This document shows, one piece after another, positions 18,825 through 47,459 of a stretch of DNA of 64,000 nucleotides (its first letter is position 1; every line of letters begins with the position of its first letter). The position numbers and the translations under genes were made by a program. The stretch lies in contig JWIH01000024.1 of assembly GCA_000814665.1 (NCBI GenBank), positions 368,755-432,754 of the forward strand, given 5' to 3'. Under the pieces are notes generated by a model that saw only the letters and a list, made by a program, of their open reading frames with translations, was not told the origin of the DNA and did not search any database. The stretch is from Pseudoalteromonas flavipulchra NCIMB 2033 = ATCC BAA-314 (GTDB lineage: Bacteria > Pseudomonadota > Gammaproteobacteria > Enterobacterales > Alteromonadaceae).

Positions 18825-19987
<1,163 letters not shown>

Positions 19988-20051
19988 TGGGCACCTCTAG
20001 TTGAGTGGTAATGATACCACCTAAAATAGTGTCCGGGTTTATTGAACCACA

Positions 20052-20916: not shown

Positions 20917-20997
20917 GTATGGACTCCTTATTTGGTAAAAGTGTTTTGCAATATCTTTATACCGTACTCTCCCGATAAGGGGGAGGAGTCCATACAT
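20915..20997. repeat. Perfect 14-bp inverted repeat at the 5' end of the IS110-like element
   Basis: ATGTATGGACTCCT (20915-20928) and its exact reverse complement (20984-20997) flank 55 bp immediately upstream of and overlapping the transposase start codon. The outer copy coincides with the apparent junction between the element and the interrupted RAYT gene, so it probably marks the element end; the inner copy contains the start codon and spacing to the ribosome site, and could regulate translation or bind transposase. Confidence 0.55.
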
Positions 20998-28702: not shown

Positions 28703-30409
28703 ATGAAATTATTTGATGCATTTATCCATAGGTCGCCAAACAAACTGTTTGCTGCGATAGTTTTTGGTTCATTAGCTGGTGTTGCGTACAGCTTGCTTAT
28801 CCCTATAGTGTTAAACAGTATCACTGGAGATAGTCGTTTTGTTGCCGAAGATACAGCTAATGCTATCGTATTCGGTATTGAAGTAGCTAACCAGAGTTTT
28901 GCCACTGCGTTCTTGATTATTTGCTTATTTATATTTTTTGCTAGAACATTTTCCCAAATAACGTTAACAAGGTTAGCGCTTGATGTGACTTCTGATCTGC
29001 GCAAAGACATTTATCAAAATATAGCAAAAGCTTCGTTAATTAATTTAGAAAATGTTGGTTCGCCTAAGCTGCTAGCGACAATCACTAAGGACGTTGAAGA
29101 CATAATGAGAGGCGTGAAAGTGTTGCCTGATTTGATTATTTCAATGGTTACTATTGTTAGTATGCTGAGTTTTTTGTTGCTATTAAATGCTGAAGCCTTT
29201 GGTTTTGTGTTGGCGGCTATTCTATTTGGTGCATTAACTTATCAAATTCCAATGTTAATTGGGCGTAATTACTTTATCAAAGCCAGAGAGAGGGTTGATG
29301 ATTTGCATGAGGGCATTCGAGGCTTAATTTATGGCGCTAAGGAATTAAAGCTCAATACAAGTCGAAAAGAGCATTATCATCAAGTTGAGTTAAATGATGC
29401 AGAGTCTGGCTTGATTAAAACACAAAAGACAGCTTTGGCAATTGTTCGTAGCGCGATGAACTATGGTGACCTTATTGGCTTTTTTGTTATTGGAGTCATT
29501 ACGTTCGTATTTGTTAATTACAGTGATATTAGTAGCGAAGAGCTGATTGGCGTCATAATGGCAATGTTATATGTTACCGGCCCTGTCGGGTCGATTTTAA
29601 ATACTTTTCCAGAGTTGTCTATGGCAAAAGTTTCATTGCGAAAAATAACACATTTACGAAAGCTATTAGCAGAAGAAGCGTTTAATGAGTCAGTCGAGCC
29701 GATAAAACCTTGGCAGTCAATTACAGTTAAAAACTTGCGTTTTATTTATCCTAGTCAGGAAGAGGATACATCATTCTCTGTTGGACCTGTTTCACTTCAA
29801 CTCAAGAAAGGGCAGGTTACTTTTATCGTGGGTGGTAATGGTTCGGGGAAATCTACATTAGGCAAAATGCTTACCATGCACTATTTACCAACAGCGGGCA
29901 GCATTAGCTTTGATGATGTCGAAGTAACAAAAGATAATATTAATAGTTACCGGCAATGTATTTCATCTATTTATTCAGACTATTACCTATTTCAAAGCCT
30001 GCATGGCTTAGGTAACAAATTAGATGAAGACAAAGTACAGAAGTATTTAACCAAATTAAAGCTGCAAGACAAAGTGACAATAGAAAATGGCCGCTTTTCT
30101 ACACTTAAGCTATCGGATGGACAAAGAAAAAGATTAGCACTCCTAGTGGCTTATTTAGAAGAAAAGGATTTGTATCTGTTTGATGAGTGGGCGGCGGATC
30201 AGGACCCTGACTTTAAACACTTTTTTTATTATGAATTGCTAAAGGAATTAAGAGAGGCTGGAAAAGCCGTGATAGTAATAAGTCACGATGATAGATACTT
30301 CGACCTTGCCGATCAGGTCATTGTAATGGAAAGGGGGCTGCGCAGAGACGAGTCCAGTGTGACTATTCCTACCGAGGCGCCAGAAGAAAAACAAGAGGAA
30401 TTTGTGTGA
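28703..30409 (+). CDS. Cyclic-peptide export ABC transporter (PvdE/SyrD type, fused TMD-NBD)
   Basis: 568 residues. About six membrane segments cover 1-300. The nucleotide-binding domain has Walker A GGNGSGKST (377-385), signature LSDGQRKR (from 470) and Walker B LYLFDEWAADQDP near 490-503. The DEWAADQDP form is typical of the cyclic-peptide exporter group that includes PvdE and SyrD. It moves NRPS products, often acylated, across the inner membrane. It lies 11 bp after the acylase and overlaps the first NRPS by 4 bp (GTGA), so these are one transcription unit with coupled translation. Confidence 0.9.
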   Translation: MKLFDAFIHRSPNKLFAAIVFGSLAGVAYSLLIPIVLNSITGDSRFVAEDTANAIVFGIEVANQSFATAFLIICLFIFFARTFSQITLTRLALDVTSDLRKDIYQNIAKASLINLENVGSPKLLATITKDVEDIMRGVKVLPDLIISMVTIVSMLSFLLLLNAEAFGFVLAAILFGALTYQIPMLIGRNYFIKARERVDDLHEGIRGLIYGAKELKLNTSRKEHYHQVELNDAESGLIKTQKTALAIVRSAMNYGDLIGFFVIGVITFVFVNYSDISSEELIGVIMAMLYVTGPVGSILNTFPELSMAKVSLRKITHLRKLLAEEAFNESVEPIKPWQSITVKNLRFIYPSQEEDTSFSVGPVSLQLKKGQVTFIVGGNGSGKSTLGKMLTMHYLPTAGSISFDDVEVTKDNINSYRQCISSIYSDYYLFQSLHGLGNKLDEDKVQKYLTKLKLQDKVTIENGRFSTLKLSDGQRKRLALLVAYLEEKDLYLFDEWAADQDPDFKHFFYYELLKELREAGKAVIVISHDDRYFDLADQVIVMERGLRRDESSVTIPTEAPEEKQEEFV

Positions 30410-33400
30410 ACATCCATATGATCCCAAATAAAATAGCCTTGACTTCAACCCAACGAGATATTTACTTTGCCCAGCTTAGATATCCTGCCAACCCATTGTA
30501 TAATATTGGTGGCTTTATTCGTTTTAAAAATATAGACCCAAAGCGTGTGCAACGAGCGCATGCTCAGATGGTACGAAATCACGACGCGTTTGGCATACGT
30601 ATTCTGTCAGAAGAAAGCGGTTTAGGGCAATATTTAACTCAAGTGCGTGATACGAGTTTACCGATAGTAGATTTTAGTGATAAGTCTGAGAGCGAAATTG
30701 ATTTATGGTTAGATAAACAGTTTCAAACACCATTTGAAATCCATGACGAACCTTTGTTTCGTTCTTTCTTGATAAAAATGGCCAAACGACATTACCGTTA
30801 TGTATCATTAGCTCACCATATAGCGGTCGACGGCTGGGGATTTGCAAATCTCGCTAGGTTGATTGGTGTTTATTATAATCAAGACTTGGCTGGCAAAAGT
30901 GCACCTGAGTTGGAAATCAGCTGGCCTGATATCGTCGAACTGGATAAGTCATATGTAAGTAGTACGAAATACCAAAACGATAAAGCATATTGGCAAGAAA
31001 ACCTTAAGGATTTATCTACTGAGCCACTTTTTTCGCCAGATTTGAATGTGTCTTATGAAGGCGAGGACTGCATTCCAAGTCGTAGGGAAATTAGCGTTTT
31101 ACCGAAAGAAAAAGTTGTTGCATTGAAAAAGGCAGCAGCCGAATTAAACATCGCTTTCCCGCAATTGTTACTTTCAGCTTACGCACTATATTGGATATTG
31201 TCATATCGAAAAAAAGAATTAACGATAGGTGTTCCCGTTCATAATCGTAGTGGTCATAAACAAAAGTCTAAACTAGGTGTTTTTACTAGTATGAGCCCTT
31301 TACGATTAAACCTAGATGGTACGAATAGTTTTAAGTCAATCGCGGTGGAGATATCATCGCAAATAAAGCGAAATTTTCGTCATACAAAATTTCCTATTGG
31401 CGACATTTATAGTTGTATTAGTCGTTCCGCACAGAGAGCACCTTTGTATGATGTTGCATTTAATTTTCTGCATCTGGATAGTGATATAGAAATCGAAGGG
31501 CAAACAGCTGATCTTGTGTATTGGTCACACAGTCACGAACAAACACCAGCGATGCTCAATGTTTGGGAATACGGTGCAACCGACTATGTTGAGTTGCAAC
31601 TCGATCACAGCTTAAAATGGCTCTCGCAATTGGCAGCAAGGCGTGTACTTGACGGCATTGTTAAAATATTGGAGCAGGTATTAGTCAACCCTGTTATGTC
31701 AATTGACAGGCTTGATACTTTTGGTGAACAAGAGCGGGCGTTGTTAAGTCACCTTTCAACACCTTCACTTTTGCCAAATAAGTTAGGCCAAGACTCAATT
31801 ATTAGCGCTTTTGAACACCAAGTTTTACAGACCCCAGATAAGATAGCCGTACTTGATAGTCAACATGAAGTAAGCTTTGTTGAGTTGAATATAAAGGCTA
31901 ATCAATACGCAAGAGTATTACAAAACAGTGGAGTGGTTTGCGCAGATATAGTCGGTGTTTCTTTAACGAGAGATAAGGACTTACCCGCAATTTTATTGGC
32001 TATTTTTAAACTAGGGGCTGCTTATGTTGCTCTTGACCCTTCAATTCCAGAGCATCGTCTTGCGTCAATTGTTAACGACAGTGGCTTGAAACATGTCGCT
32101 GTGAGTGAGCAAGTTACTTTTCCGCGTTTGTCTAATTATCAAATTGTTGAGTTAAGTTCGGAAAAGGTCGTTGAATTGAATGGAGAGAATCTTAATTTAA
32201 CTTATTCACCTAACGATCTTGCTTACTTAATTTATACGTCTGGTTCGACTGGTATACCAAAAGGGGTGGAGATCTGTCATAAGAACTTAATGGCTTTGAT
32301 TAATTGGTCTTTAGAAGAGTTTAGCAAGAGTGAGCTTCGTTGTGTCCTTGCAAGTACTTCGTTAAGTTTCGATTTATCTGCATTTGAGTTGTTCGTCCCT
32401 TTGTCGTCGGGAAATTGTATATATGTAGTCGAAAACGCGCTGGAAGCGATGAGTACGTGTCCTGTGGTGTCTATGATAAACACCGTTCCCTCCGCGATGA
32501 AAGTATGGTTGGAGCACAGAAATATCCCTAAATCTGTCGTTGCTATAAATCTTGCAGGGGAGCCATTGCCAATGGCTCTTGTAAACGATATCTTCGAACA
32601 AAACTCAAGTCAGACTGTGCGAAATTTGTATGGGCCCTCTGAGGATACGACATATTCAACTTGTATGGCTTATACCGAAAAGGTACACATTTCCCCCGCC
32701 ATTGGTAAAGTCATTAGTGGTAGTTGTGCCCTTATATTAGATCAGAGAGGGAAGGAGCTACCTGTTGGACATATAGGAGAACTTTACCTTGGAGGTAGTG
32801 GCGTAGCCAGAGGTTACCGAAACCTTTCTCAATTAACAGATGAAAGGTTTCTTTTTCTTAAAGCAAGCGACAATGAATCTATGAAATGGTATCGCACTGG
32901 TGACCTCGTGCGATTGGATGATGACGGTATTTTGCATTATGTTGGCAGAATCGATGAGCAGATCAAACTGAACGGTTTTAGAATAGAGACTAATGAAATT
33001 TCAACTGTATTGACTCAATATCCCAGTATTAATGATGCGCTTGTCGTTGCTAAAGTTCAATCAGAGCATAAGTTTTTGGTAGCTTATTACTGCGCAGCAC
33101 AACCTATTGATAATAAGTTGCTATTTGAGCATATTAGTAAAATATTACCAATGTATATGGTGCCTCAACATTTTTGTTTTTTAGCAGAGTTTCCGCTGAA
33201 CAAAAATGGTAAAATAGATAAAACCAAATTACCTGATATTAAAGTAGAAAGTTTAACTGAGGCGTTTGTTGCCAAAAACGAAGTCGAACGGATGTTGTTG
33301 ACTCTATGGCAAGATTTGTTAGGTGTCCAATCAATTCCTATTGATCAGAGCTTATTTGAATTAGGTGGTAGCTCGCTGTTGGCAATGAGAATGTTGGCTT

Positions 33401-36400
33401 TAATCAATGAGACTTTTGCGACACAATTTACACTTGTACAATTGTTTTCACATGATACTTTGCCAAAGCAGTCAACACTTCTTCAACAAAACTGCGTCAA
33501 AAAGCATCAAGTTGTAATCAAGCGCATTGACTCAAACCGCGCTCCACTTTCGTTGGCTCAAAAACGTATTTGGTTCACTGAGCAAATGGCTGGTAATCAA
33601 ACGATGAATAACATGGTGATTTCCTATAGGTTATCAGGTGCTCTCAACGTTGCAAAACTAAGACAAGCACTTGCAGATGTGGTTAAGAATAATGCAATAT
33701 TGAGAACGACTTATCATCTAGATCATGAGTTGCCTTATCAGTTGGTAAGACATAATGCTTCCGTTGAGTTCGTTGTTGATAAACTGCCCGCAGGCGATAT
33801 GAAAGATGTCCTAAATGATCTTTATGCCCAGAGGTTAAATAGCAAGTTTGACTTAGAGTCAGATACCATGTTGCGGGCCCATCTGTTCACAGAAGATGCT
33901 AGTACTAGTTACCTATTTCTTTCCTCTCATCATATTGCGTTGGATGGTTATTCGATTAATCTCTTGCTTAAAGAGTTGTCTGATATTTATGACTGCAATC
34001 TTAGTGGCAATAGGCGTGATTGTGATTTACCGCTAGAAGCGCCAGAGTATGGCGATTTTGCGACGTGGCAAAACGAAAATAAGCATCAAATTGATATAGA
34101 TTTTTGGCAAACTAAGCTTGAAGGGGCGCCAAATTTGCATGGGTTGCCCTTGGATAATCCAAGATTAAATAATACTCGCATTGATGGACGATGCTCGCGT
34201 ACATTTGTCGATGACCAAACAACTAAACAGTTGATCAAACTGTGTGAACAGCACAAGCTGACTCTTTCTAGCATACTGTTTAGTTTGTATAGTTATCTGC
34301 TGATGGTATACAGCCGCCAGCAAGATATTATTATCGGTATTCCTGTGCTAGGTAGAGAGCATACTAGCTTGCAAAAAGTGTACGGTGTATTTATTAATAT
34401 GCTGCCAATCCGAGTTCAGGCTAAGCACAATGAGTCACTTGTGAATTGGATGAGCTCTATACAGTCTGAACTTTTCGACGCTTTACCTCACCAGTCGACA
34501 CCGTTTGAGCAATTAGTTGAACAATTAGCCACGGCTCATGATTCGAGCTATGCACCTATATTTCAGATCATGTTTAATTATCAAGAATATAGTTTCGATA
34601 ATATGACATTACGGGAAGTATGCAGTGAACGATTAGTGCATGAACATAGTGCTGTGAAGTATGATCTAGAACTTCATGTAAACACCATGTCGGATGGGTT
34701 AGAACTTAGTTGGTTATACAACCAAGCTATATTCGATAGCACTACAATCAAGCAATGGCAGAATAGTTTTGAACTGTTGCTAAATACCTTTGTGTCAACC
34801 CCAGAAGCCAGCCTACACGAGTTAAACTTACTTAGCAGATTAGATTCAAGCAAACTGGTCCAGTGGAACAAAAGCAGTCGTGTACAAAATGCTGAGAAAA
34901 ACTTCCTTGCAGCAATTTATCAAAATTTTGATTCGACAAGTATAGCGTTCGTAATGGGAAAGGATGTGATGTCATATAAGCAAGTGGGTGAGCTGTGCAC
35001 CCACTTTGCAAAGTCAATTTTAGCGGCTGGTGTCACTCAAGGAGATGTGGTTGGGATTATGTTACCGCGTGGTCAAGTGTTGCAATGTAGTATGCTTGCC
35101 ACGATGCTACTGGGGGTAACATTTGTTCCTTTGCCAATAAATTTTAATGACACGCGATTAGCTTACATTATTAAAGACAGTGGCATTAGTCATATTATTA
35201 CCAAAGATGAAGTTCGAGCGAGCAAGTTGTCGTGTTCGACTTTGATACAAGTGCGTGATATTGAGAATTATGATTTAGTCGCTTCAACAACAAAAGCGCT
35301 GCCAATCCGTCAATTTCATCCAGATGCAACGGCCTATATTTTATATACGTCGGGCTCGACAGGAAGCCCCAAAGGGGTGCCGATACACTACGGTGCTTTA
35401 AACAACTTTTTAAACGCAATGTTATTGGCGTTAGACTTAGGTAATGCGAAAACTTGGTTGGCCTTAACTACTAATTCTTTTGATATTTCACTTCTAGAAT
35501 GGCTAGCGCCTCTAATTAGAGCAGATCGTTGTGTACTCGTTAGTGATGAGCAAGCTGCTGACCCTTTATTATTAAAAGAGTATATCGAACAACATGAAGT
35601 CGATGTTATTCAAGCTACCCCATCAAGGTGGCGGCAAATGATAGAATCAGGCTGGCAAGGAGGTAAGCGTTTAACTCTATTAACAGGTGGTGAGGCTCTA
35701 GATACACATTTGCAGCAATTACTGTCTGAGCGAAGTGGTACATTATTCAATTGCTATGGACCAACAGAGGCAACAATTTGGTCCTGTATAAACAGAGTAG
35801 ACAGTCAGGCTAGTGAACGATGCCGCTTAGCCTTAGGGAAAAGTTTAAGCAATTATATCCATGCTGTAGTTGACGAAAATAATCGATTGTTACCCATGGG
35901 AGCTATCGGAGAACTAGTAATCAGCGGTGTCAGTGTTACAAACGATTATCACAACTTACCTGAGTTATCTGCAACACGTTTTTTTGTTTGTCAACAGCAT
36001 CCATATCAAGGGAAGCGCTTTTATTTGACTGGAGATTTGGTTCGTTTAGACGGCTCGGGTCGTCTGAATTATATAGGCCGAATTGACAACCAAATTAAAA
36101 TTAGAGGGACTTTAGTTGAGCCAACAGAGGTTCAAGGGGCGCTGTGTTCATTGCCAGAGGTTAACCAAGCTTTCGTTTGTGCATTTGATAACGGGCGAGA
36201 GCAAGAGCTTGCTGCATATTTAGTGCTAAACGAAATAGCTTCTCTTGTTGATATACGAAATGCGCTACTAAAAATACTGCCCGACTATTTAGTCCCTTCT
36301 AGATTTGAGGTTTTCGATGAGATGCCGCTTACCAGTAACGGAAAAATTGATATTAAGGCGTTACCAAGCTTCAGCAGGCAAATGATTGTTGAACCAACTT

Positions 36401-36693
36401 TGGCTCAAGGAAAGACTCAGAAAATACTTGTTTCTCTATGGTGCAGTGAACTTGATGGAATCAATAAAAATGTATGCGTAGAAACAGACTTTTACTCGCT
36501 GGGTGGAAATTCTATGCATGTGGTTAGGTTAGTACGAAAGATTAATCAGCACTTTGACTTTATCGAGTTTTCGGTAGCAGATTTTTTGGCTGATAGTCGG
36601 ATAACAACGATTGCCTCGCTATTAGATGAACGTACTTTCTATCAAAATTTGACGAGTGACGCGAGCGAATATAGCAGTATAACTGTGATCTAA
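30406..36693 (+). CDS. NRPS1: C-A-T-C-A-T, predicted Ala then Gly
   Basis: 2095 residues. Module 1: condensation (about 5-430, AHHIAVDGWG with HH at 137-138), adenylation (about 470-960; YTSGSTGIPKG, FDLSAFELF, NLYGPSEDTTYS), carrier protein with LGGSS (Ser990). Module 2: condensation (about 1050-1480; HHIALDG at 1175), adenylation (about 1500-1955; FDISLLEWL, YGPTEATIW), carrier LGGNS (Ser2036). The binding-pocket codes read by eye are DLFNNALTYK (a known Ala code) and DILQLGCIWK (close to the Gly code DILQLGLIWK). An N-terminal C domain in the first NRPS suggests a starter C that loads a fatty acyl group. There is no TubC docking domain here. Start GTG 30406 overlaps the exporter stop; ATG 30418 is an alternative. 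Confidence 0.9.
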   Translation: MNIHMIPNKIALTSTQRDIYFAQLRYPANPLYNIGGFIRFKNIDPKRVQRAHAQMVRNHDAFGIRILSEESGLGQYLTQVRDTSLPIVDFSDKSESEIDLWLDKQFQTPFEIHDEPLFRSFLIKMAKRHYRYVSLAHHIAVDGWGFANLARLIGVYYNQDLAGKSAPELEISWPDIVELDKSYVSSTKYQNDKAYWQENLKDLSTEPLFSPDLNVSYEGEDCIPSRREISVLPKEKVVALKKAAAELNIAFPQLLLSAYALYWILSYRKKELTIGVPVHNRSGHKQKSKLGVFTSMSPLRLNLDGTNSFKSIAVEISSQIKRNFRHTKFPIGDIYSCISRSAQRAPLYDVAFNFLHLDSDIEIEGQTADLVYWSHSHEQTPAMLNVWEYGATDYVELQLDHSLKWLSQLAARRVLDGIVKILEQVLVNPVMSIDRLDTFGEQERALLSHLSTPSLLPNKLGQDSIISAFEHQVLQTPDKIAVLDSQHEVSFVELNIKANQYARVLQNSGVVCADIVGVSLTRDKDLPAILLAIFKLGAAYVALDPSIPEHRLASIVNDSGLKHVAVSEQVTFPRLSNYQIVELSSEKVVELNGENLNLTYSPNDLAYLIYTSGSTGIPKGVEICHKNLMALINWSLEEFSKSELRCVLASTSLSFDLSAFELFVPLSSGNCIYVVENALEAMSTCPVVSMINTVPSAMKVWLEHRNIPKSVVAINLAGEPLPMALVNDIFEQNSSQTVRNLYGPSEDTTYSTCMAYTEKVHISPAIGKVISGSCALILDQRGKELPVGHIGELYLGGSGVARGYRNLSQLTDERFLFLKASDNESMKWYRTGDLVRLDDDGILHYVGRIDEQIKLNGFRIETNEISTVLTQYPSINDALVVAKVQSEHKFLVAYYCAAQPIDNKLLFEHISKILPMYMVPQHFCFLAEFPLNKNGKIDKTKLPDIKVESLTEAFVAKNEVERMLLTLWQDLLGVQSIPIDQSLFELGGSSLLAMRMLALINETFATQFTLVQLFSHDTLPKQSTLLQQNCVKKHQVVIKRIDSNRAPLSLAQKRIWFTEQMAGNQTMNNMVISYRLSGALNVAKLRQALADVVKNNAILRTTYHLDHELPYQLVRHNASVEFVVDKLPAGDMKDVLNDLYAQRLNSKFDLESDTMLRAHLFTEDASTSYLFLSSHHIALDGYSINLLLKELSDIYDCNLSGNRRDCDLPLEAPEYGDFATWQNENKHQIDIDFWQTKLEGAPNLHGLPLDNPRLNNTRIDGRCSRTFVDDQTTKQLIKLCEQHKLTLSSILFSLYSYLLMVYSRQQDIIIGIPVLGREHTSLQKVYGVFINMLPIRVQAKHNESLVNWMSSIQSELFDALPHQSTPFEQLVEQLATAHDSSYAPIFQIMFNYQEYSFDNMTLREVCSERLVHEHSAVKYDLELHVNTMSDGLELSWLYNQAIFDSTTIKQWQNSFELLLNTFVSTPEASLHELNLLSRLDSSKLVQWNKSSRVQNAEKNFLAAIYQNFDSTSIAFVMGKDVMSYKQVGELCTHFAKSILAAGVTQGDVVGIMLPRGQVLQCSMLATMLLGVTFVPLPINFNDTRLAYIIKDSGISHIITKDEVRASKLSCSTLIQVRDIENYDLVASTTKALPIRQFHPDATAYILYTSGSTGSPKGVPIHYGALNNFLNAMLLALDLGNAKTWLALTTNSFDISLLEWLAPLIRADRCVLVSDEQAADPLLLKEYIEQHEVDVIQATPSRWRQMIESGWQGGKRLTLLTGGEALDTHLQQLLSERSGTLFNCYGPTEATIWSCINRVDSQASERCRLALGKSLSNYIHAVVDENNRLLPMGAIGELVISGVSVTNDYHNLPELSATRFFVCQQHPYQGKRFYLTGDLVRLDGSGRLNYIGRIDNQIKIRGTLVEPTEVQGALCSLPEVNQAFVCAFDNGREQELAAYLVLNEIASLVDIRNALLKILPDYLVPSRFEVFDEMPLTSNGKIDIKALPSFSRQMIVEPTLAQGKTQKILVSLWCSELDGINKNVCVETDFYSLGGNSMHVVRLVRKINQHFDFIEFSVADFLADSRITTIASLLDERTFYQNLTSDASEYSSITVI

Positions 36694-36779: not shown

Positions 36780-39700
36780 ATGAATAACCAAGATATCGAA
36801 AAAGAAGAGTGTCATTTTTACTCAAGAAGTCATGAAAAATTAGTTGCAGAGCTTGCTAAAGATAAAAATAAAGCTGTAAAAGTAGCGACTGAAGTTGAAC
36901 AACGACCTTTTCCAAAATTTGCTCTGGCCGAATTAGAATTATTTGAGATAAGTCCGTGGCCATTAGTTATCTCGCAGAAGTGGGAAGAACGCTTTGATAA
37001 ATTCATAAAAGGAATTGGTCCAATATTGTGGAAGTCACTCTTGCTATATTTTGGTGATGATGCCGAAAAGTTTGCTGATAACACTGGACTCCCCGTTGTA
37101 GTTCTAAATATTCTCAAGGAGGCAACACTGGACCCTTACAATTTATTTGTTAGGCATGATGTGATGGTAAGTGGCAATGAGATCAAATTATTGGAAGTCA
37201 ATGCAGGCACTGCGATTGGTGGTTGGGAATTGAGTTTAATTGAACGGCGAATGGCGGATGCATTGCACTTGATGACTGGTCTTGATTCTGATTCTGTTGC
37301 AGCAGCCTTGATATTTGAAAAGCTCTTTAATAGCTTGGCAACACAAATTAAAAGACTTAAAACACCTTACCATACAGGTAATATTCTTTTTGTTTTTGAA
37401 CGAGAGCCTCCGCAGGATCTACTAAGACTGATTGGTAAACAATTACAAGAATATTACGTTAATAGTTCAGATTATGTGGCTGGAGAGGTTATTTTAACCA
37501 GCGGAAGCCTGGGGATTAGTTTTGGGGAAGAGGGTGAAGTCCGGTTTAATGGTACGGTGATTAACGGATTGCTGATGGCTGGTGCTAGTCTTGGTGTTTC
37601 TCTAACGCTCGCTGAGGTTAGCGGACATTTAGTTTTTCCTGATAGTTTTATTTATAAAATACTCGGTCAAAAAGCATTACTCGCTTTACCTCATAAACCT
37701 CAAGTAAAAGCAAAACTGGCTAGTAATGAGCGTGAATTTGTTGATAGGCATATACCTTTTACCGTCACAATGGATGAAGAAAAAGTAGAGTTTCGGGGAC
37801 AAATTAGCGATTTAGCATCACTTTTGAGCGCACGACGTTCGGATTTTGTCATTAAAAAGTCCAGTTCTCTAGCTGGTAAGGATGTATATGTAGGTTGTTT
37901 TACTGAGCCAGAATTGTGGCAAGAATTAATAGAAATACTCTGTGGTAATGCACATTGGGTCGCACAAGAATATTGTGAGGCGGACAAATTCTTAGCCGCC
38001 GATAAATCCTGTAAAGTGGTTAAGTATACGCCGGTTTGGGGGGTTTTTGGCTTTGAAAATAGTTATTGTGGCGCTTTTGTAAGAGCTAGTATTGACTCAA
38101 CTGAGGAAGGGAACGGAGTGATTAACTCTGCAACTGGGGCGTTGGAATTTGCGGTATTAGAGGAACAAAATAGTCAGACCGAAGAAGTTGGAGAACATCA
38201 CTCAATTGATATTGCAGCGAGAGGAAACAGCTATAAGCTTGCTGCTTCTTATGGTCAATTAACCGATCAACTTGTTCAAAATAAATCGAAATTGGCACCG
38301 TTAGTTTCTGCTTTGTCAGAGCGTCGCTTTCCAGAATTTGCTCAGCGTGGATTAAATACATATCCATTAAGCCATTGGCCCTTGTTGATTGATCAAAACA
38401 CTACTTCTAAGTTTGAAACATTCGTACAAAACTTTGAGTCGTTAATACGCCATGTTGTTGACTATTGTTTTGTTGAAAACTTGCAAAGTTGGAAAGATTA
38501 CTTCGGTCAAGGGCAATTCTTACTTTCTCTATTTTCAGAGCAAGAAGTGAATTATGATAACTTGCTTATTAGACACGACACCCTTATCAGTAATGGTACG
38601 GTTAAGATGTTAGAAGCAAATGTTGGTTGTTCAATTGGTGGCTGGGAAATAGATTTATTTGAGGCGTCTACTTTAGACGCTGTCGAAAAGCTCTTACCAA
38701 TCGACAGGAGTAATTTTGCTGCGAGGCCTTTCTTAAAAAATCTTTTTAATCACTTTTCTGCGGCGATAGAAAGATTATCGTTGGCAAACAAAAGTCGCAA
38801 TGTGTTGTTTGTTTCTAAGCCAATGGAGCCTCACTTAGAAGAGTTATTTCAACAACAACTACAGCAGATGTATCAGTCGCAAAATGATTACTTGGGAGGC
38901 GAGGTTCTTTTTGGAACTGACCCACATCAAATTACATTTGAACAAGACAATACATTAACTTATCAAGGAAGGGCGTTTAATGCGCTAGTTATGCCTAATT
39001 TAAGTGCTTACCCTGAGTTAGCTTTTAATATCACCCGAGCGGTAATTGAAGGGTATGTTATAAGTGCTGATAGCCCTATGTTTGAGTTACTCGGTAATAA
39101 AGCAATGATGGCGCTATTTCACGAGGAGGATGTTAAAAACTCCCTTCCTGATTTACTTCGAGACTTTGTTGATTCCAGCATTCCATATACTGTAAAACTA
39201 GATAGTCCCGCGGTTAGTTTTGACGGAAAAGCCTGCTCTATAAAAGATTTATTATTATGTTATCAAGATCGGTTTGTCCTCAAAAAAACAGATTCTTCTC
39301 ATGGTGTTGATGTCTATATTGGACGATTTTGTGATAAGGCAGAATGGCAAAAGCTGGTCTTACAACTTTTGGGAAGTCCAGAGTGGATAGCGCAAGAGTA
39401 TTGTGAACCTGATAGCGTAATTGGTGCAGATTACTTATCCAATGTTTCAGAGTTTTTACCTGTATGGGGATTATTTTCAGTTGAAGGACATTATGCAGGG
39501 GCACAAGTTCGAGCTGAAGACGTAAATCATAGGCATGGTGTCGTTAATACGCATCAAGGAGCTAGTGTATTTGTAGTTTTGGAAGACAAAAGTCCTCTTG
39601 CTAAAATATCCAATACTGCAAGCGATGCAAAAAAAAGCGCTACCAATATGCTTTATTCTGAAACATTTGCAGCTATGAGCGATTTTTATACAAGAAAAGG

Positions 39701-41021
39701 AACTCATACCGGTCATGTATTACCGTTTACTTTGGATGGCTTACCTAAGTTTATGGGATTTCATGAGGAGTTACATTACTTACCATTAGTTGTGTCTCAA
39801 AAGTTAGTTTTAGATTTCGAAGGTCTTATTTTGGGTTACCCAGGCGTTGTACTGCGAGCAATTCAGAGCATGTTACCTGATGAACAGACTTTTATTGAAT
39901 TGCTGGATGAGTCACCTTTGCTTTTTGACGTGATGAGGGATTACGCCCCCAATCCTGCCGAACTAATGTTTAGATTCGATATTCATTGTGATGGCGAACA
40001 ATTAACTATGCTGGAAGCTAACTTAGGTACAGTGATAGGTGGTTGGGAGGCTGACTGGTTAGAGCCAAGGGTGAGAGCACGTATTGCTGAATTTGAAGAG
40101 CAAAGCGAGCCCGAACTATATTACCGTCAAGTTACGCCTCAGATGTTCCGCAGTTTAATTGACTGTATTCTCGAAATGAAGCGAGAAAATGCAACGGGCA
40201 TTATTTTGATTGGAACTGAAGCTGAAAGAAGTGAAGAATGGCTTAGCTTTGAAAGTGCACTTGAGCAGGTATTTGGTTCGGTCAAAAAAGGTGGATATGA
40301 CCATGGGCGTCTTATTTTTTTCCACGAATGGCAAGAACTTGATTTTTCTTCACAGGGGAAAGTTTTTTACCAAGAAAGTGAAGTTGATACCGTATTTACG
40401 GTAACTCCTCGATTGGAAAATCAAAAGGTAGGATTGTTAAATGCACAATTGATGTCAGCCTATTTAGCTAAAAACCTGGTTTTCCCTGACTCTCCGTTAC
40501 ACCAAGTCTTTGGTAACAAGTTAGTGATGCCTTTGCTCCATGACTACAAGAACTCCGGTGAAGCAAGTAACGAGGATATTGCATTTATTGAGCGGTACAT
40601 TCCTTGGTCGGCTAGGTTGAATTCGTTACTGCAAGAACGTCATATCGACAAATTGGAACAGGTTAAGCTACACCGTCAAGATTACGTATTGAAAAAATCA
40701 GCTTCTAGTAAGGGGAGTGATGTTGTGGTTGGTAAGTACAGCGGGCAAACCCAATGGTTGGAGGCAATAGAAAGAGCGTGTGTTGAGGATGATTGGCTTG
40801 TGCAGCGCTATAGCCCAGCGTCAAAAGTTTATCTGCCTGATAGGGGAGAATTAATCGAGAATGACATGGTTTTGGCCGTATATGGTATGAGAGATCGTTA
40901 CAGTGGTGCTTGGGCAAGGTTAGTGCGCAAATGTGATACAGGGGTTATCAATGTTGGTACCGGCGCTGTACCAATGTTAGTTCTTGAAGAGCTTAAACAA
41001 CAGCAAATCGTAATTATTTGA
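36780..41021 (+). CDS. Three tandem ATP-grasp-like repeats in one protein, unknown function
   Basis: 1413 residues made of three copies of a unit of about 470 residues. Equivalent motifs recur: LLEVNAGTAIGGWE (from 138), MLEANVGCSIGGWE (from 611), MLEANLGTVIGGWE (from 1078). Each repeat also has an ILGQKALLAL/LLGNKAMMAL/VFGNKLVMPL segment, a lysine-serine strand FVIKKSSSLAGKDVYVG / FVLKKTDSSHGVDVYIG / YVLKKSASSKGSDVVVG, and a hinge-like WVAQEYCEAD / WIAQEYCEPD / WLVQRYSPAS. This order resembles preATP-grasp/ATP-grasp carboxylate-amine ligases, but I know no named family with this triple layout. Each repeat starts with a similar PLxxSQK-like segment. It sits between NRPS1 (86 bp) and NRPS2 (12 bp), so it probably modifies or extends the peptide or makes a building block. 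Repeat 3 has the most changed hinge. Confidence 0.8.
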   Translation: MNNQDIEKEECHFYSRSHEKLVAELAKDKNKAVKVATEVEQRPFPKFALAELELFEISPWPLVISQKWEERFDKFIKGIGPILWKSLLLYFGDDAEKFADNTGLPVVVLNILKEATLDPYNLFVRHDVMVSGNEIKLLEVNAGTAIGGWELSLIERRMADALHLMTGLDSDSVAAALIFEKLFNSLATQIKRLKTPYHTGNILFVFEREPPQDLLRLIGKQLQEYYVNSSDYVAGEVILTSGSLGISFGEEGEVRFNGTVINGLLMAGASLGVSLTLAEVSGHLVFPDSFIYKILGQKALLALPHKPQVKAKLASNEREFVDRHIPFTVTMDEEKVEFRGQISDLASLLSARRSDFVIKKSSSLAGKDVYVGCFTEPELWQELIEILCGNAHWVAQEYCEADKFLAADKSCKVVKYTPVWGVFGFENSYCGAFVRASIDSTEEGNGVINSATGALEFAVLEEQNSQTEEVGEHHSIDIAARGNSYKLAASYGQLTDQLVQNKSKLAPLVSALSERRFPEFAQRGLNTYPLSHWPLLIDQNTTSKFETFVQNFESLIRHVVDYCFVENLQSWKDYFGQGQFLLSLFSEQEVNYDNLLIRHDTLISNGTVKMLEANVGCSIGGWEIDLFEASTLDAVEKLLPIDRSNFAARPFLKNLFNHFSAAIERLSLANKSRNVLFVSKPMEPHLEELFQQQLQQMYQSQNDYLGGEVLFGTDPHQITFEQDNTLTYQGRAFNALVMPNLSAYPELAFNITRAVIEGYVISADSPMFELLGNKAMMALFHEEDVKNSLPDLLRDFVDSSIPYTVKLDSPAVSFDGKACSIKDLLLCYQDRFVLKKTDSSHGVDVYIGRFCDKAEWQKLVLQLLGSPEWIAQEYCEPDSVIGADYLSNVSEFLPVWGLFSVEGHYAGAQVRAEDVNHRHGVVNTHQGASVFVVLEDKSPLAKISNTASDAKKSATNMLYSETFAAMSDFYTRKGTHTGHVLPFTLDGLPKFMGFHEELHYLPLVVSQKLVLDFEGLILGYPGVVLRAIQSMLPDEQTFIELLDESPLLFDVMRDYAPNPAELMFRFDIHCDGEQLTMLEANLGTVIGGWEADWLEPRVRARIAEFEEQSEPELYYRQVTPQMFRSLIDCILEMKRENATGIILIGTEAERSEEWLSFESALEQVFGSVKKGGYDHGRLIFFHEWQELDFSSQGKVFYQESEVDTVFTVTPRLENQKVGLLNAQLMSAYLAKNLVFPDSPLHQVFGNKLVMPLLHDYKNSGEASNEDIAFIERYIPWSARLNSLLQERHIDKLEQVKLHRQDYVLKKSASSKGSDVVVGKYSGQTQWLEAIERACVEDDWLVQRYSPASKVYLPDRGELIENDMVLAVYGMRDRYSGAWARLVRKCDTGVINVGTGAVPMLVLEELKQQQIVII

Positions 41022-41032
41022 AGGTAGTAAAG

Positions 41033-44000
41033 ATGGAAATTAAAGAAATATTAGAGAAAAGCGTTGCGGCTGGATTACGGATTACGCTAAACCAACAAAA
41101 CCTTCAAATTCACAGTGATGCACCGCCAGAACCTGAGCTATTGGCGATGATCAAGCAGCATAAACCGGCTATCGTGGCCTTTTTGCAAAAACATATAAGT
41201 GATGTCAAACAAACCGATGAGATTGCTGTAGTTAATGTGGATAATGGCTTTCCGCTGTCTATGCAACAACAAAGTTTGCACTTTATTGGACAATTATATT
41301 CTGATCATAGTCAGTACAATTTATGCCGGGTTTTTTCTTATCAAGGGCAGCTGGATATTAATGTAGCAAACCAAACTATTCATTATTTGGTTAATAGACA
41401 TCCAATGTTGAGCTTACGCTTTGATGAACATGAAGGGGAAGTTTCACAACAGTTTGTCGATCTTGCTTCGGTATCTGTGCGCAGTGAAAGTGGAAATATA
41501 GAAAGTATTTTATTGAATGAACAGAAGCATCAGTTTGCGTTAGATGGTACACCGCTGATTCGTGTTATTCATGTTCCAATCGATGATAAAAGTGGTTGGT
41601 TATTGTTTAATTTGCCACACCGTGTGGTTGATGGGAAATCAATATCAATTGTTACTCAAGAGTTCGTGGAAGTATACCAAGCGATCTCGCAAGGTAGAGA
41701 AGCGTCATTGCCAGCACTGCCTATCAGGTATAGCGATTACGTCGCGTGGCAAAACAGCCCAGAACAGTTGAAAAAACACAGCGATGAATTACATTATTGG
41801 TTAAATAACTTACAGGAGTATCCACCGCTTCATTCTCTTCAGTGTGACTTTCAACGACCTGCAATAAAGTCAACCGATGGAAAGATGTTCACGACAGAGC
41901 TCTCGGCAGAAATGAACCAGCGCATTGATGCGTTTTGCAAAGTAAATGCTGTGACACCGTTTATTTTGCTGCAAACTTTAATGGCTGTGTTAGTTAGTCG
42001 CTATAGCGGCGAAAAAGAGGTGGTTATTGGGACGCCGGTTGAATGCCGAAGCCACAAGCAGCTCGAAAATTTGGTTGGTTTATTTGCAAATAGCGTAGCG
42101 ATTAAGAGTTCAATAAGTCGCAATATATCGTTTCGTGAACAGCTCGAAAATAATAAATTGCAAATACAACAAGCGATGTCGAATCAAGATGTCCCTTTGA
42201 GAAAAGTAGTTGAAAGTGTTAACCCAGACAGAGCAATGAGTCACTCACCTTTATTTCAATTATTTTTTAGCTTAGATAATGACTCTATCAATGATATTTT
42301 GCTTGATTCAGTAACACTCACTCCCGTATCACTTGGTGAAACCACGAGTAAATTTGACCTAGAACTAATGATAAAAAGGGGAGATAAGAAATCATTAGTT
42401 AATTGGCATTACGATCATAGGTTATTTACCGAGACGTCAATAGCTTCCTTTGCTCAAAGTTATTTGCAGTTGTTGGAGGAAGTACTCGATAATGTTGAAG
42501 TTCAATGCGAACAACTGGATTTAGACAGAAGCAGAGTGATACCTATAGCACTAGATCAGTCTGAAGGAGAGCTCTTACATAAATTGATAGAGCATCAAGC
42601 AGAGCGTTATCCAGACAAAGTCGCTATTGAAGGTGCTGATTCAAATATCAGCTACAAAGCTCTTAATGAAAAGGCAAACCAAGTTGCTCATTTCTTAATT
42701 AAGCAAAAGTTAAGTGCAGATGAATTTGTTGGGGTGTGTATTGAGCGAAGTATTGCGTCAGTCATTGCTATTCTAGGGGTTCTTAAAGCTGGTATTGCCT
42801 ATTTACCAATTGATCCAAAACTACCTCAAGCTCGCCGTCAATACATTGTGAACGATGCTAAGATTTCACTGGTTTTGAGTGAGTTAAATGAAGACTTTTG
42901 GACATCGGTCAGTTTGTCAGACATCTTGCAAAGAGAGTATGCGACTTGCAATCCAAATATTGTTATACACCCTGAAAGTACGGCATATGCTATATATACT
43001 TCAGGCTCAACTGGTAACCCTAAAGCGGCGGCGATAAGTCATAGTAATGTATTTGCATTACTCAAAGGCTGTAACCGTCACTATGGTTTGAATGAACAAG
43101 ACAGAGTTACTAATTTCCACTCTACATCATTCGATTTTTCAGTGTGGGAAATTTTCTCAGCGCTTACCAACGGCGCTACGTTATACATAGTACCAGAGCC
43201 ACTTAAGTTAGATATTCGTTTGCTCACTAAATATATTACAGACAATGAAATAACCTTATTAAGCTTAACCCCGTCAGTATTTTACTTATTTGCAGATGAA
43301 ATGCTGAAGCAAGGTAAAGCTCACAAGCTTCGTTATGTTGTGTTGGGTGGTGAAGCATTAGATAAACAGAAAATTCTTCCTTGGCTTGAAAGTCAGCATG
43401 ACGGACAAGTACGTTTGATTAATATGTACGGAATTACCGAAACTACAGTACATGTGACTTTTCATGAGGTAACTCTTGATTCGAGTGACGCTTCTATCGG
43501 CGTTCCAATAGATGGTTATGAAGCGTATGTGGTCAATGAGCAAGGTAGCTTGCAACCTTGCAATGCTGTTGGAGAATTATGGATCGCGGGTAAAGGAGTT
43601 GCTAAAGGGTACTTAAATCGTGAGCAGTTAAATCGTGATAAATTTTCAGTGGTTGATCTAGGTGGCTACTCTAAACGAGTTTACAAAACAGGAGATTTAG
43701 CCTGCTGGAGCCCTGACGGAAGTTTGCGTTATTTAGGTAGACGTGATCAGCAAATTAAAATTAGAGGCTATCGGATTGAGCCTGGAGAGGTAGAAGCTGC
43801 AATACTGTCTTTAACTGAAGTCACAGGAACGGTAGTTGATAAAATAACATGCTCTACAGGTGAGCAGTTGGTCGCCTTTGTTAAGTGTAATTCTTCGAAA
43901 ATAAAAAATATAAACGAAGTGATTAGCGCTAAAGTGAAGCAGTCTTTGCCTGCATATATGGTTCCTAACATCATTAAAGTAATCGAAGAAATACCTGTTA

Positions 44001-47000
44001 CTCGCAATGGTAAAGTAGACAAACAGCGACTAATGGATACATTACAAGATACGGCTTTTGTTGAACGACTACCTTTATCTACAAATACAGAAGTTGAACT
44101 TGCAAATATATGGAAAGAGTTGATTGGTGTTTCACAAGTATTTGCAGATGATAACTTTTTTTCGCTAGGAGGACATTCGCTCGTTATTGCTAAACTGATC
44201 GCGTTAATAGAACGCCAATTCGGTAAATCGCTTTCATTGACGTCTGTTTACGAAAACCCTCAACTTGCAGATCTCGCTCGTGTAATTGATGCGGCCAATT
44301 CAGAGAAACATATTATCGACAAGGTAAATGCACAGGTTGATGTTGAACCGACTCCAATGCAAAGCTCAATGTGGCTTGCATGTCAGATAGAAGAAAATTC
44401 GAGCAAATATAATATTCCAGTCACGCTAAAACTTGAGGGTACGGTAGATCAACAAGCTATTGTTGATGCATTGACCTCGATCGTTGAGCGTCATGAATCG
44501 TTGAGAACTCGGTTTTTGAAACGCGATGACAAATTGATTACTCAAGTTAACCCTGATATCAGTTTACAACATGAGTTTGTAGATCTAAGTGATCTAAGTC
44601 CAAACCTAAGGTTTGAAGCGCTCGCTGAGCATAAACGAATTGAAGGAGAGCGCAATTTCGATCTCAGTTCAGATACATTGATAAGAAGTCGGTTATTAAA
44701 ATTTGAACCACTCGAGTATTATTTATTGTTAACGGTTCATCATCTGGCTTGTGATGCATGGTCAATCGATATTTTGTTTGATGAATTTAGCCAATTATAT
44801 AATTGGACACACGATCGTCATACGCCAAAACTACCAAAATTAGATATACAATATTGTGACTACGCGGCGTGGTATAACGAGAAAAATACGTCGGCAGATA
44901 TAGGAAAAAGCAAATCGTTTTGGCAGCAAGAACTGGCAGGAGCACCCTTGGTTCATAGCTTACCTTTGGACTTTGCGAGGGAAAAGTTGGTCAATAATGA
45001 AGCCGCTTATCATAAACAAGTGATTGGCGGTAAAGTGTATAGAGGATTAAAAGAGTTGGCACAAAGAGAAGCGCACTCTTTGTTTAATGTCGTTCAGCCA
45101 CTGATAGCTTTACTATTAGCCCAACTAAGCAACGAAGATGATATCTTGATGTTATGTCCGTTTGCAGGGAGAGGTAATAATCAAACGGAAAATCTGATCG
45201 GTTTATTTAACCAAAACATTATTTATCGTACCACCCTATCAGCTAACGCTAGCTTTTCAGAATTGATATCAGACAGTCACGCGTGGTTTAAAAGGGCTGT
45301 TGAGCACCTAAACATCGCTCATGATGAGGTTGTCAAAAGTGTGGCTCCACTGCGTCAATACGGATTTACACCTTTGTGTCAGGTAGCTCTAAACTTTTTA
45401 GTAAAATCATCGCCAAAGCCCCAACTCAACGAGGTAGTCTGGACTGATATTTCACAAGAGTACGGTATTCAAGATTTAGATCTGCATTTTACTATTGTAG
45501 ATACTGGAGAAGCGCTAGAGGTTCGGTGGCTATATAAAAAGTCTCTTTTCAAAAATGATACCATCTGTAATTGGGCAGATAAATTAGCAGCGCTCAGCGC
45601 TGTGACTGTAAATAATTCTGAAAAACCACTGGCTCAATGGCCTTCTTCTTCGTGGAAACATTATGAAAAGTTAAATAGCTTGTCTTTGTTTCCTACTGAA
45701 AGTGCAAACTATATTCATGAAGCGGTAGAGAAGATGGCTGATAAGTTTGCAGACAAAGTTGCAATCGTTGCACAAGACGCTCAGTTAGACTACAAAACAT
45801 TGAATGATACGGCAAATCAATATGCTGCGTGCTTGATCGACAAAGGGGTAAAACCTGGACAGTACGTCGGAATCTGTGCTGAGCGCAATACTAACTTTGT
45901 TATAGCAATGCTTGCAGTACTAAAAGCTGGTGGCGCTTACGTTCCTCTTGTTCCAGATTTACCAGAAGATTATTTGGAAAATATTGCGTCAGACGCCGAA
46001 ATAGACATTATTCTGACGGAGCAGGCTTTGTTACAGAAGTTTAATTTTCTGTCGTATAAACGAGTTATTCCAACAGATATGGCTTTTAGAAAAGTACTTT
46101 TAGCCAAGTACTCTACCGACAATGTAAAGCTAGAATTGCAACCTACCTCAGTACAACCTGCTTATGTGATTTATACTTCAGGTTCTACAGGTAAACCTAA
46201 AGGTGTAGAAGTCAGCCACAATGCGCTCGGTAACTTTGTTAAGCATGACCAGAAATTACTAGGAATGGATCAGCATAGCCGGTTACTTAATGTGTTCTCC
46301 TTCAGTTTTGATCCCGCTTCAGGCGTAATTTTTTCAGGGCTCACTGCGGGGGCTTCAATTAATATATGCCCGACACATGAAGAACTAGCTCCTTATATCG
46401 AAGAACACAAGCTAACTCACTTGATTTTCCCAACAGCCCTTGCGGCAGCTACGCCAGTAGGAGATTGGCCACATGTCAAAGTAGTGAGCGCTGGGGGAGA
46501 GGCCTGTTCTCCATCGCTCTCTCAAAAATGGGGAAATCAGTTTGAGTTTTTTAATCTATACGGACCTACAGAAGCAACTATTTACGCGTTAAGTGATAAA
46601 TATGTTGCAGGCAAAAAGTTGACGATAGGTAAACCGATAAGTCACTCTGGATGCTACATAATAAACAAGCTCGGCCAGATTGTTGATGTTGGTCAAGTCG
46701 GCGAGTTGGTTATATTTGGAGCTAGTGTCGGGACGAGGTATTTAGATAACGAGTTAAATGAAGTTAAATACTCCGTGATACAAACACCTAGAGGCCCTGA
46801 AAAGGTTTATAAAACAGGTGACTTAGCACTGCTAAATGAAGATGGAAATGTCGAATATAAAGGAAGAATAGATTCACAATTAAAAATACATGGCTACAGA
46901 ATAGAGCCTGCACAAGTTGAGGCTCAAATAATGACGCTACCTGAAATTAAAGAGGTAGCTGTAGTGGTACATAAGCCTGAAAAGGGTGAACCACAACTTG

Positions 47001-47458
47001 TTGCCTATTATAGCTCAAGTGACGGCAGCAATATGTTTGATTTTGATTCTCATCTAGAGGGGAAATTACCACATTGGATGTTGCCGTCATCGTTCATTTA
47101 TGTAGAGGCATTGCCACTGACTATAAATGGTAAATTAGATGTCAAAGCGCTCCCTCAGCCTTTATTGGAAAAAACAGAGATGGTTCTGCCAAAAAGCCAA
47201 TTAGAGCAGGAAGTGAAAAATATTTGGTGTGAAATACTATCACTTGAAGATATGTCGATGTCCGATGACTTTTTAAATGTTGGGGGAAGTTCCTTAACGG
47301 CTATGGTTTTGGTTAACCAAATAAAAAGTAAGTATAAGATTGATATTAAAGTGAAAGATTTATTTGAACATTCAACCCCTACTAAGTTTGCAGAGTTACT
47401 TGAATCATTAAACGATAGCGTTGAAGAGGTTGAGCATGCAGTTGAGATGGAGTGGTAA
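41033..47458 (+). CDS. NRPS2: TubC dock-C-A-T-C-A-T, predicted Thr then unknown
   Basis: 2141 residues from ATG 41033 (AAGG about 8 nt upstream; a TTG at 41018 is rejected). Residues 1-55 (ILEKSVAAGLRITLNQQNLQ) form a TubC-type N-terminal docking domain. Module 1: C domain with PHRVVDGK (His196; the first His of HHxxxDG is Pro), A domain with IYTSGSTGNPKAAAISH (the usual KG is KA) and FDFSVWE, MYGITETTVHV; code DFWSVGMVHK, close to Thr DFWNIGMVHK; carrier LGGHS (Ser1049). Module 2: C domain HHLACDAW (1236), A domain with FDPASGVIF and LYGPTEATIYA, code about DPGLSGLIYK, which matches no code I know; carrier VGGSS (Ser2087). The C-terminus is acidic, suited to pair with the next docking domain. 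Confidence 0.9.
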   Translation: MEIKEILEKSVAAGLRITLNQQNLQIHSDAPPEPELLAMIKQHKPAIVAFLQKHISDVKQTDEIAVVNVDNGFPLSMQQQSLHFIGQLYSDHSQYNLCRVFSYQGQLDINVANQTIHYLVNRHPMLSLRFDEHEGEVSQQFVDLASVSVRSESGNIESILLNEQKHQFALDGTPLIRVIHVPIDDKSGWLLFNLPHRVVDGKSISIVTQEFVEVYQAISQGREASLPALPIRYSDYVAWQNSPEQLKKHSDELHYWLNNLQEYPPLHSLQCDFQRPAIKSTDGKMFTTELSAEMNQRIDAFCKVNAVTPFILLQTLMAVLVSRYSGEKEVVIGTPVECRSHKQLENLVGLFANSVAIKSSISRNISFREQLENNKLQIQQAMSNQDVPLRKVVESVNPDRAMSHSPLFQLFFSLDNDSINDILLDSVTLTPVSLGETTSKFDLELMIKRGDKKSLVNWHYDHRLFTETSIASFAQSYLQLLEEVLDNVEVQCEQLDLDRSRVIPIALDQSEGELLHKLIEHQAERYPDKVAIEGADSNISYKALNEKANQVAHFLIKQKLSADEFVGVCIERSIASVIAILGVLKAGIAYLPIDPKLPQARRQYIVNDAKISLVLSELNEDFWTSVSLSDILQREYATCNPNIVIHPESTAYAIYTSGSTGNPKAAAISHSNVFALLKGCNRHYGLNEQDRVTNFHSTSFDFSVWEIFSALTNGATLYIVPEPLKLDIRLLTKYITDNEITLLSLTPSVFYLFADEMLKQGKAHKLRYVVLGGEALDKQKILPWLESQHDGQVRLINMYGITETTVHVTFHEVTLDSSDASIGVPIDGYEAYVVNEQGSLQPCNAVGELWIAGKGVAKGYLNREQLNRDKFSVVDLGGYSKRVYKTGDLACWSPDGSLRYLGRRDQQIKIRGYRIEPGEVEAAILSLTEVTGTVVDKITCSTGEQLVAFVKCNSSKIKNINEVISAKVKQSLPAYMVPNIIKVIEEIPVTRNGKVDKQRLMDTLQDTAFVERLPLSTNTEVELANIWKELIGVSQVFADDNFFSLGGHSLVIAKLIALIERQFGKSLSLTSVYENPQLADLARVIDAANSEKHIIDKVNAQVDVEPTPMQSSMWLACQIEENSSKYNIPVTLKLEGTVDQQAIVDALTSIVERHESLRTRFLKRDDKLITQVNPDISLQHEFVDLSDLSPNLRFEALAEHKRIEGERNFDLSSDTLIRSRLLKFEPLEYYLLLTVHHLACDAWSIDILFDEFSQLYNWTHDRHTPKLPKLDIQYCDYAAWYNEKNTSADIGKSKSFWQQELAGAPLVHSLPLDFAREKLVNNEAAYHKQVIGGKVYRGLKELAQREAHSLFNVVQPLIALLLAQLSNEDDILMLCPFAGRGNNQTENLIGLFNQNIIYRTTLSANASFSELISDSHAWFKRAVEHLNIAHDEVVKSVAPLRQYGFTPLCQVALNFLVKSSPKPQLNEVVWTDISQEYGIQDLDLHFTIVDTGEALEVRWLYKKSLFKNDTICNWADKLAALSAVTVNNSEKPLAQWPSSSWKHYEKLNSLSLFPTESANYIHEAVEKMADKFADKVAIVAQDAQLDYKTLNDTANQYAACLIDKGVKPGQYVGICAERNTNFVIAMLAVLKAGGAYVPLVPDLPEDYLENIASDAEIDIILTEQALLQKFNFLSYKRVIPTDMAFRKVLLAKYSTDNVKLELQPTSVQPAYVIYTSGSTGKPKGVEVSHNALGNFVKHDQKLLGMDQHSRLLNVFSFSFDPASGVIFSGLTAGASINICPTHEELAPYIEEHKLTHLIFPTALAAATPVGDWPHVKVVSAGGEACSPSLSQKWGNQFEFFNLYGPTEATIYALSDKYVAGKKLTIGKPISHSGCYIINKLGQIVDVGQVGELVIFGASVGTRYLDNELNEVKYSVIQTPRGPEKVYKTGDLALLNEDGNVEYKGRIDSQLKIHGYRIEPAQVEAQIMTLPEIKEVAVVVHKPEKGEPQLVAYYSSSDGSNMFDFDSHLEGKLPHWMLPSSFIYVEALPLTINGKLDVKALPQPLLEKTEMVLPKSQLEQEVKNIWCEILSLEDMSMSDDFLNVGGSSLTAMVLVNQIKSKYKIDIKVKDLFEHSTPTKFAELLESLNDSVEEVEHAVEMEW

Positions 47459-47459
47459 A

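Follow-up and report, generated by a model that had tools for sequence, protein, structure and literature searches.

A putative triple ATP-grasp ligase with a synthetase-like tail in a nonribosomal peptide synthetase cluster of Pseudoalteromonas flavipulchra

Introduction

GspS joins a peptide to a polyamine; like YjfC and YgiC, it has a single ligase domain and is not known to be linked to nonribosomal peptide synthetases (NRPSs). The eukaryotic-type glutathione and homoglutathione synthetases, also one-unit enzymes with no known NRPS link, act on a dipeptide. Here we describe an open reading frame (ORF) that appears to place three ligase units of this general kind in one polypeptide. It occupies 36780..41021 (+) of a 64,000-nucleotide stretch of Pseudoalteromonas flavipulchra NCIMB 2033 (contig JWIH01000024.1, positions 368,755 to 432,754), hereafter the window, and is flanked on the same strand by NRPS ORFs at 30406-36693 and 41018-47458. 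The original prediction, made from the letters of this DNA, had already noted three ATP-grasp-like repeats between NRPS genes, and both the repeats and their setting are borne out below.

A second relevant precedent is the way in which NRPS subunits find one another. As described in passages of a docking review, a short linear motif (SLiM) binds through its last five residues, by way of salt bridges and along a hydrophobic face; such motifs can be promiscuous and occur also on oxidases and heterocyclisation domains (PMC9113145). The window protein ends in a tail that resembles these motifs. We give even chances to the reading that it comprises three working ligases of the GspS/glutathione-synthetase kind which would be docked to the NRPS by this tail and would carry out thioester-free ligation on the assembly line, docking and reaction being the inferred parts.

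Three predicted ligase units in one polypeptide

The ORF opens with ATG and encodes 1413 amino acids (aa), which divide as follows.

36780..38213, +, R1 (aa 1-478), ATP-grasp ligase unit, from BLASTP, profile and catalytic columns, with fold searches on an AlphaFold2 model
38214..39620, +, R2 (aa 479-947), ATP-grasp ligase unit most closely related to R1, from sequence comparison and tree
39621..41018, +, R3 (aa 948-1413), ATP-grasp ligase unit that keeps its catalytic residues, from sequence comparison and tree

The likeness among the three is far above chance, with BLASTP identities of 34% for R1/R2 (E 8e-92), 26% for R1/R3 (E 3e-42) and 24% for R2/R3 (E 3e-30). A profile of 15 units, with R1, R2 and R3 themselves among its rows, detects each as a separate, near-full-length domain (E 2e-159, 2e-160 and 6e-147). 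The repeated motifs are collinear: the glutamates E139 in LEVNAGTAIGGWE, E612 in LEANVGCSIGGWE and E1079 in LEANLGTVIGGWE stand where the original prediction had put them, and are followed by GQK/GNK at 296/772/1245, KK[ST]xSxxGxDVxxG at 359/835/1305 and [AV]Q[ER]Y[CS] at 395/871/1341.

An AlphaFold2 model of R1, the unit that was modelled, points to an ATP-grasp fold of the glutathione-synthetase/GspS type. In fold searches its nearest bacterial neighbors are GspS, YjfC and YgiC, and the scores for the E-64 ligase Cp1B and for glutathione synthetases equal theirs. In R1 numbering, R125, D127, E139, N141, K359, Q396 and N449 are kept in 25/25 units, and K298 and R435 in 24/25 each; all nine of these catalytic-column residues (R, D, E, N, K, K, Q, R, N) are present in R1, R2 and R3. 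An HMMER alignment, some pieces of which score negative on their own, lays R125, D127, E139, N141, K298 and R435 onto GspS R316, D318, E330, N332, K498 and R598, residues with catalytic or metal-ligand roles there. In Cp1B, passages of its description give R139, D141, E163 and N165 a probable role in acyl phosphate formation, with changes to Ala abolishing or weakening activity (PMC12568646); we equate these with the window residues by pattern only. The Pfam family PF03738 (GSP_synth) does not claim the protein, which scores 24 bits against a cut-off of 29.3, and matches 1/15 units even at E 0.01.

Sequence comparison, joined for the fold by the R1 model, thus supports ORF 36780..41021 as a predicted ATP-grasp protein with three intact ligase units. 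The original prediction had named the loss of the ATP-binding lysine and acidic metal ligands from every repeat as fatal to an ATP-grasp assignment; they are kept in all three. Its suspicion that R3 is degenerate fell, because the catalytic-column residues are all there and the changed stretch, from AQEYCE to VQRYSPAS, retains the conserved Q. The tree, which with moderate support groups R3 with single ligases of other NRPS clusters, likewise speaks against a degenerate unit.

Tails and docking domains at ligase junctions

The link to the assembly line that we propose runs through two short features.

40998..41018, +, QQQIVII, the C-terminal tail of the ligase and a putative SLiM for docking
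41039..41188, +, TubC_N-like beta-hairpin docking domain at the N terminus of the next subunit, ligase-junction class (TubC_N E 3.6e-4; class score +23.1)

The TubC_N match reaches 21 bits, under the curated cut-off of 26; our own docking-domain profile, seeded with the same sequence, finds the domain in 41018-47458 at E 3e-17. The upstream partner also ends in a short hydrophobic tail, SSITVI, and because QQQIVII resembles it, the ligase may plug into the next subunit at its beta-hairpin docking domain.

We compared tails from related clusters (given by working labels where they must be told apart), taking as a junction two genes on the same strand, less than 6 kb apart, of which the second is an NRPS with a beta-hairpin docking domain. 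This gave 10 NRPSs before a ligase, 11 ligases and 32 NRPS-to-NRPS junctions; G088, a near twin of G012, was left out of these and of the code and condensation (C) domain counts. Over the last ten residues, net charge averages +1.6 for NRPSs before a ligase, +1.1 for ligases and -2.8 for NRPS-to-NRPS junctions (permutation p 5e-5, the lowest value that 20,000 shuffles allow), a positive tail being found in 8/10, 7/11 and 3/32, respectively; the p values for tails are not blind, because the pattern was seen before testing and related clusters are not independent. The docking domains that follow ligases are more acidic than the others. Ligases also resemble their own partner: their last five residues score 8.5 against those of the NRPS in front and 4.8 against shuffled partners (one-sided p 5e-4; 10 junctions yielding 11 pairs, of which two score negative), as in NKISL/NKVTL (G379), RQITL/NKVTL (G761) and SITVI/QIVII (window). 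Before a docking-domain NRPS lie 11 of 19 ligase genes. Tails, judged by eye, are present on 10/11 ligases so placed vs 3/10 others (p 0.008), a count that alone includes the partial gene of G841 and L016, the latter missing from the 19 because an ORF overlapping it was retained instead.

With profiles trained without the tested cluster, 10/10 post-ligase docking domains fall in their own class (+16.5 to +53.8), as do 3/32 at other junctions. As a control we scored 13 docking domains (10 different sequences) from NRPS stretches on 9 other contigs of the window's genome, setting aside C8, C13, C14 and C18, which have A-domain matches: 11 are negative and two weakly positive (+6.0 and +9.6), both below the lowest ligase-junction value. 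A separate class of post-ligase C domains was sought and not found among 123 C domains, where the nine rank 1, 4, 7, 9, 13, 31, 35, 51 and 54. Because these following C domains do not separate, the docking class would not simply be inherited with the whole NRPS. By analogy, the SLiM description in the review fits the tails seen, the window junction itself being about neutral in charge.

Adenylation-domain codes and a proposed reaction

Adenylation (A) domain codes were read against GrsA numbering and assigned from a table of nearest substrates. Codes beginning DPR, or reading IRWVFSLSD, occur in 7/10 modules next to a ligase vs 4/111 elsewhere (Fisher p 6e-7; 121/127 A domains with a full code, six dropped; code class chosen after the data were seen). 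We assume that the DPR codes are like the McyE code for side-chain-activated Glu (DPRHSGVVGK), and that IRWVFSLSD resembles a code for beta-alanine but bears an arginine. Four strings of such side-chain-Glu and beta-Ala codes were looked for in the literature by text search and not found, and passages of a review gave no support either way (PMC11253843). A genus-wide A-domain search at E 1e-100, too strict a threshold for a count elsewhere, returned DPR codes in 2/107, the source cluster and its near twin. The module next to the ligase in G033 has the code DSMHVGGMA. If the DPR and IRWVFSLSD codes are read as side-chain-activating, the growing chain would present a free alpha-carboxylate where the ligase docks.

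In the reading that we propose, the ORF would be part of the NRPS assembly line and not a bystander, its product recruited to the junction through an NRPS-like tail. Each docked unit would phosphorylate a carboxylate with ATP and couple an amine to it via the acyl phosphate, no thioester being needed, and the target would be the carboxylate of a carrier-bound peptide. At most junction relatives the preceding module would have incorporated an Asp or Glu via its side chain; the alpha-carboxylate thus left free would be the substrate, and the ligase would start a branch there. Two or three fused units might then give two or three ligations from one docking site, in an order that would be part of the same proposal. 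In its general form, that docked ATP-grasp ligases are a further thioester-independent NRPS step with a copied docking tail, branches on side-chain-linked acidic residues and a number of ligations equal to that of units (up to three in the window), the proposal is unlikely to hold in every part, and we offer it tentatively.

Should the docking be true, an ATP-grasp ligase would be recruited to an NRPS junction by the synthetases' own plug, and nonribosomal peptides with branches or amidated side chains could be made in this way. The tail and the docking-domain class would then serve as a genome-mining marker, and as a portable part, in that a tailed ligase might be directed to a chosen junction. 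The split, double and triple forms among the relatives would be natural test cases.

Relatives and the triple form

Ligases of this type are sparsely distributed. Our profile A2, at E 1e-6, matches in 9/108 genomes of the genus, P. flavipulchra included (where the window ligase is the only match), and a whole-protein search in 8/108. Profile matches were found in 9/394 genomes of the order and 36/398 of the phylum, the latter mostly weak and partial; at E 1e-30 there are 5/40 in the family of G361, 1/294 in that of G761 and 2/369 in the class. A scan of a further contig collection found matches in Lysobacter enzymogenes and Luteimonas, and weak relatives occur in G027, G121, G127 and G1300. 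Six plasmid records match, each at less than 60% identity and 0/6 with 80% cover; phage records were searched without a match. An amidase is present in 12/17 ligase regions (G088 included), three of the remaining five being short contigs.

Most relatives are single ligases, simple cases being clusters of the G361 or G761 type with one ligase and one module of DPR code. G012 and G088 have a double form (951 aa), G033 has two adjoining ligase genes and a third at greater distance, and G072 and G104a have two each, far apart. The original prediction had asked after a triple architecture that always neighbors NRPS genes: the triple form was found in the window only, among the relatives compared, and distant relatives lie also in stretches without a listed NRPS gene. 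In a careful tree, from which four divergent units were left out, R1 pairs with R2 (support 95/94), and R3 falls, with moderate support (82/87), in a group of ten that otherwise holds single ligases, one of the G033 genes and unit two of G012/G088. This suggests that R3 may be the core ligase to which the other two units were added. By an approximately unbiased (AU) test, a single clade of R1, R2 and R3 is not rejected (p 0.168), and neither is one formed by both units of G012/G088 (p 0.092), so that a plain triplication is neither shown nor rejected. Two position classes of units, seen in an early tree (support 85 each), held only partly in the careful one.

The distant relative L122:10228-11637, found on Pantoea agglomerans plasmids, sits in a small cluster with genes for a further ATP-grasp protein, ThiF, TauD and a diaminobutyrate transaminase. 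An NRPS ORF of G033 (L082:16415-19999, on into L098) has about five consecutive carrier-domain matches. Directly downstream of ligase genes in G761 and G033, luciferase-like monooxygenase domains (PF00296) sit inside Gly-type A domains (L092:12858-13859, +, E 2e-47; L081:4836-5807, -, E 4e-46).

The surrounding cluster

Around the ligase gene, where T denotes the carrier (thiolation) domain, the window holds the following.

24024..24833, +, sulfotransferase
25083..26138, +, hydroxylase resembling fatty acid desaturases, best NCBIfam model GntB (under the model's cut-off)
26250..28691, +, acylase of the penicillin-amidase family with a distant likeness to PvdQ
28703..30409, +, cyclic-peptide-type ABC exporter (TIGR01194)
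30406..36693, +, first NRPS subunit, C-A(Ala)-T-C-A(Gly)-T, two PP-binding domains, C-terminal SSITVI (36673-36690)
41018..47458, +, downstream NRPS subunit, beta-hairpin docking domain-C-A(Thr)-T-C-A-T, likelier ATG start at 41033
47421..55373, +, NRPS subunit with beta-hairpin docking domain, A codes Cys-like and Asp-like
55370..64000, +, NRPS subunit with beta-hairpin docking domain, A codes Tyr and Ser, running past the contig end

The cluster is incomplete because the contig ends at the window end; a continuation was sought among the other loci compared, none of which overlaps the window exactly over 21 to 127 bases. The hydroxylase is nearest to the guanitoxin arginine hydroxylase GntB (E 6e-82, 276 bits vs a cut-off of 380), and no Arg code is seen among the eight A domains read in this incomplete cluster, one of which has no assigned substrate. 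Transposase ORFs (rve/HTH_21, HTH_Tnp_1 and IS110 type) lie upstream, at 18825-21060. Elsewhere in the genome, contig C24 (L138-L140) carries a second amidase/exporter/NRPS cluster with acidic tails and no ligase nearby.

Competing explanations

Several observations weigh against docked, on-line ligation. The R1 model is moderate (pLDDT 64, pTM 0.60), and Foldseek gives it low TM-scores of 0.25-0.39 on model length among the best 40 matches listed. The module before the window ligase has a Gly code, DILQLGCIW, as in G104a, so that a step on a free carboxylate does not fit the window. Tail charge is positive in only 7/11 ligases and 8/10 upstream NRPSs, and the window tails and docking domain are about neutral, without the pairing of opposite charges seen on average over junctions; the tests, made after the pattern was seen, ignore kinship between clusters. 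Ligase G072_36928 stands at a junction without a tail, and its end and that of G435 are unlike their partner's (scores -3 and -1). None of the nine post-ligase C domains falls in the lower half (ranks 1 to 54 of 123), and some shared ancestry of the downstream NRPSs is therefore possible. G280 has a ligase-class docking domain (+25.1; L114:11212 onwards, or 71212 in joined-region numbering) that follows an NRPS with a basic tail, the tail-less ligase found in this cluster lying about 60 kb off. Finally, the NRPS tail and the ligase tail would have to share a single docking domain.

One alternative is a free-standing ligase that makes a small pseudo-peptide from free acids and amines, to be loaded by an unusual A domain, its tail being unimportant. 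Cp1B works on small molecules in free form, and the dapdiamides are products of free-standing ligases, according to passages of the Cp1B paper (PMC12568646). Several tail-less ligase genes lie away from junctions, distant relatives are found where no NRPS gene is listed (plasmid gene tables being incomplete), and the unusual A codes beside ligases could equally indicate an unusual loaded monomer. What such an enzyme leaves unaccounted for is that 11/19 ligase genes precede a docking-domain NRPS, that ligase tails resemble those of the NRPS in front, and that the post-ligase docking domains form a class of their own; we judge it a serious but somewhat unlikely alternative. Were the units instead to conjugate spermidine or another polyamine to a peptide carboxylate, on line or after release, the nearest bacterial folds would agree, YgiC and YjfC joining peptides to polyamines (as cited in PMC12568646). 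The fold scores are equal for two kinds of enzyme that use amino acids, Cp1B and the glutathione synthetases, and polyamine conjugation seems to us improbable. That the protein is a non-catalytic plug, occupying the docking domain and gating subunit transfer with its ATP-grasp fold a leftover, we consider very improbable: tail likeness by itself would suit such a competitor, but the catalytic residues are kept in R1-R3 and, at seven columns, in 25/25 units.

Comparison with known systems

Among the matches listed in the open-access literature we found no NRPS system with such an ATP-grasp ligase, in agreement with the original prediction, which knew of none with this architecture; the novelty is provisional because the comparison covered open-access papers only. 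The nearest bacterial folds to R1 are those of the E. coli peptide-polyamine ligases GspS, YjfC and YgiC, and the window protein stays below the cut-off of their family PF03738. The acylase PvdQ and the exporter PvdE form a pyoverdine-type set, and the window likewise has a penicillin-amidase family protein and a TIGR01194 exporter beside its NRPS genes; the amidase scores 71.7 bits on the PvdQ model against a cut-off of 950, and no pyoverdine pathway is claimed. Cp1B (PDB 9cjn), with 13% identity in structural alignment, is a single, fungal, NRPS-independent enzyme acting on free small substrates, and the passages that describe it mention no docking tail (PMC12568646). The closest parallel at the junction is SLiM/beta-hairpin docking, with the same short C-terminal tail and N-terminal beta-hairpin domain and, in the review's passages, charged and hydrophobic contacts, an ATP-grasp protein not being named there as a bearer of the motif (PMC9113145). 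The window differs from this known arrangement in that a ligase and an NRPS carry like tails before one and the same docking domain.

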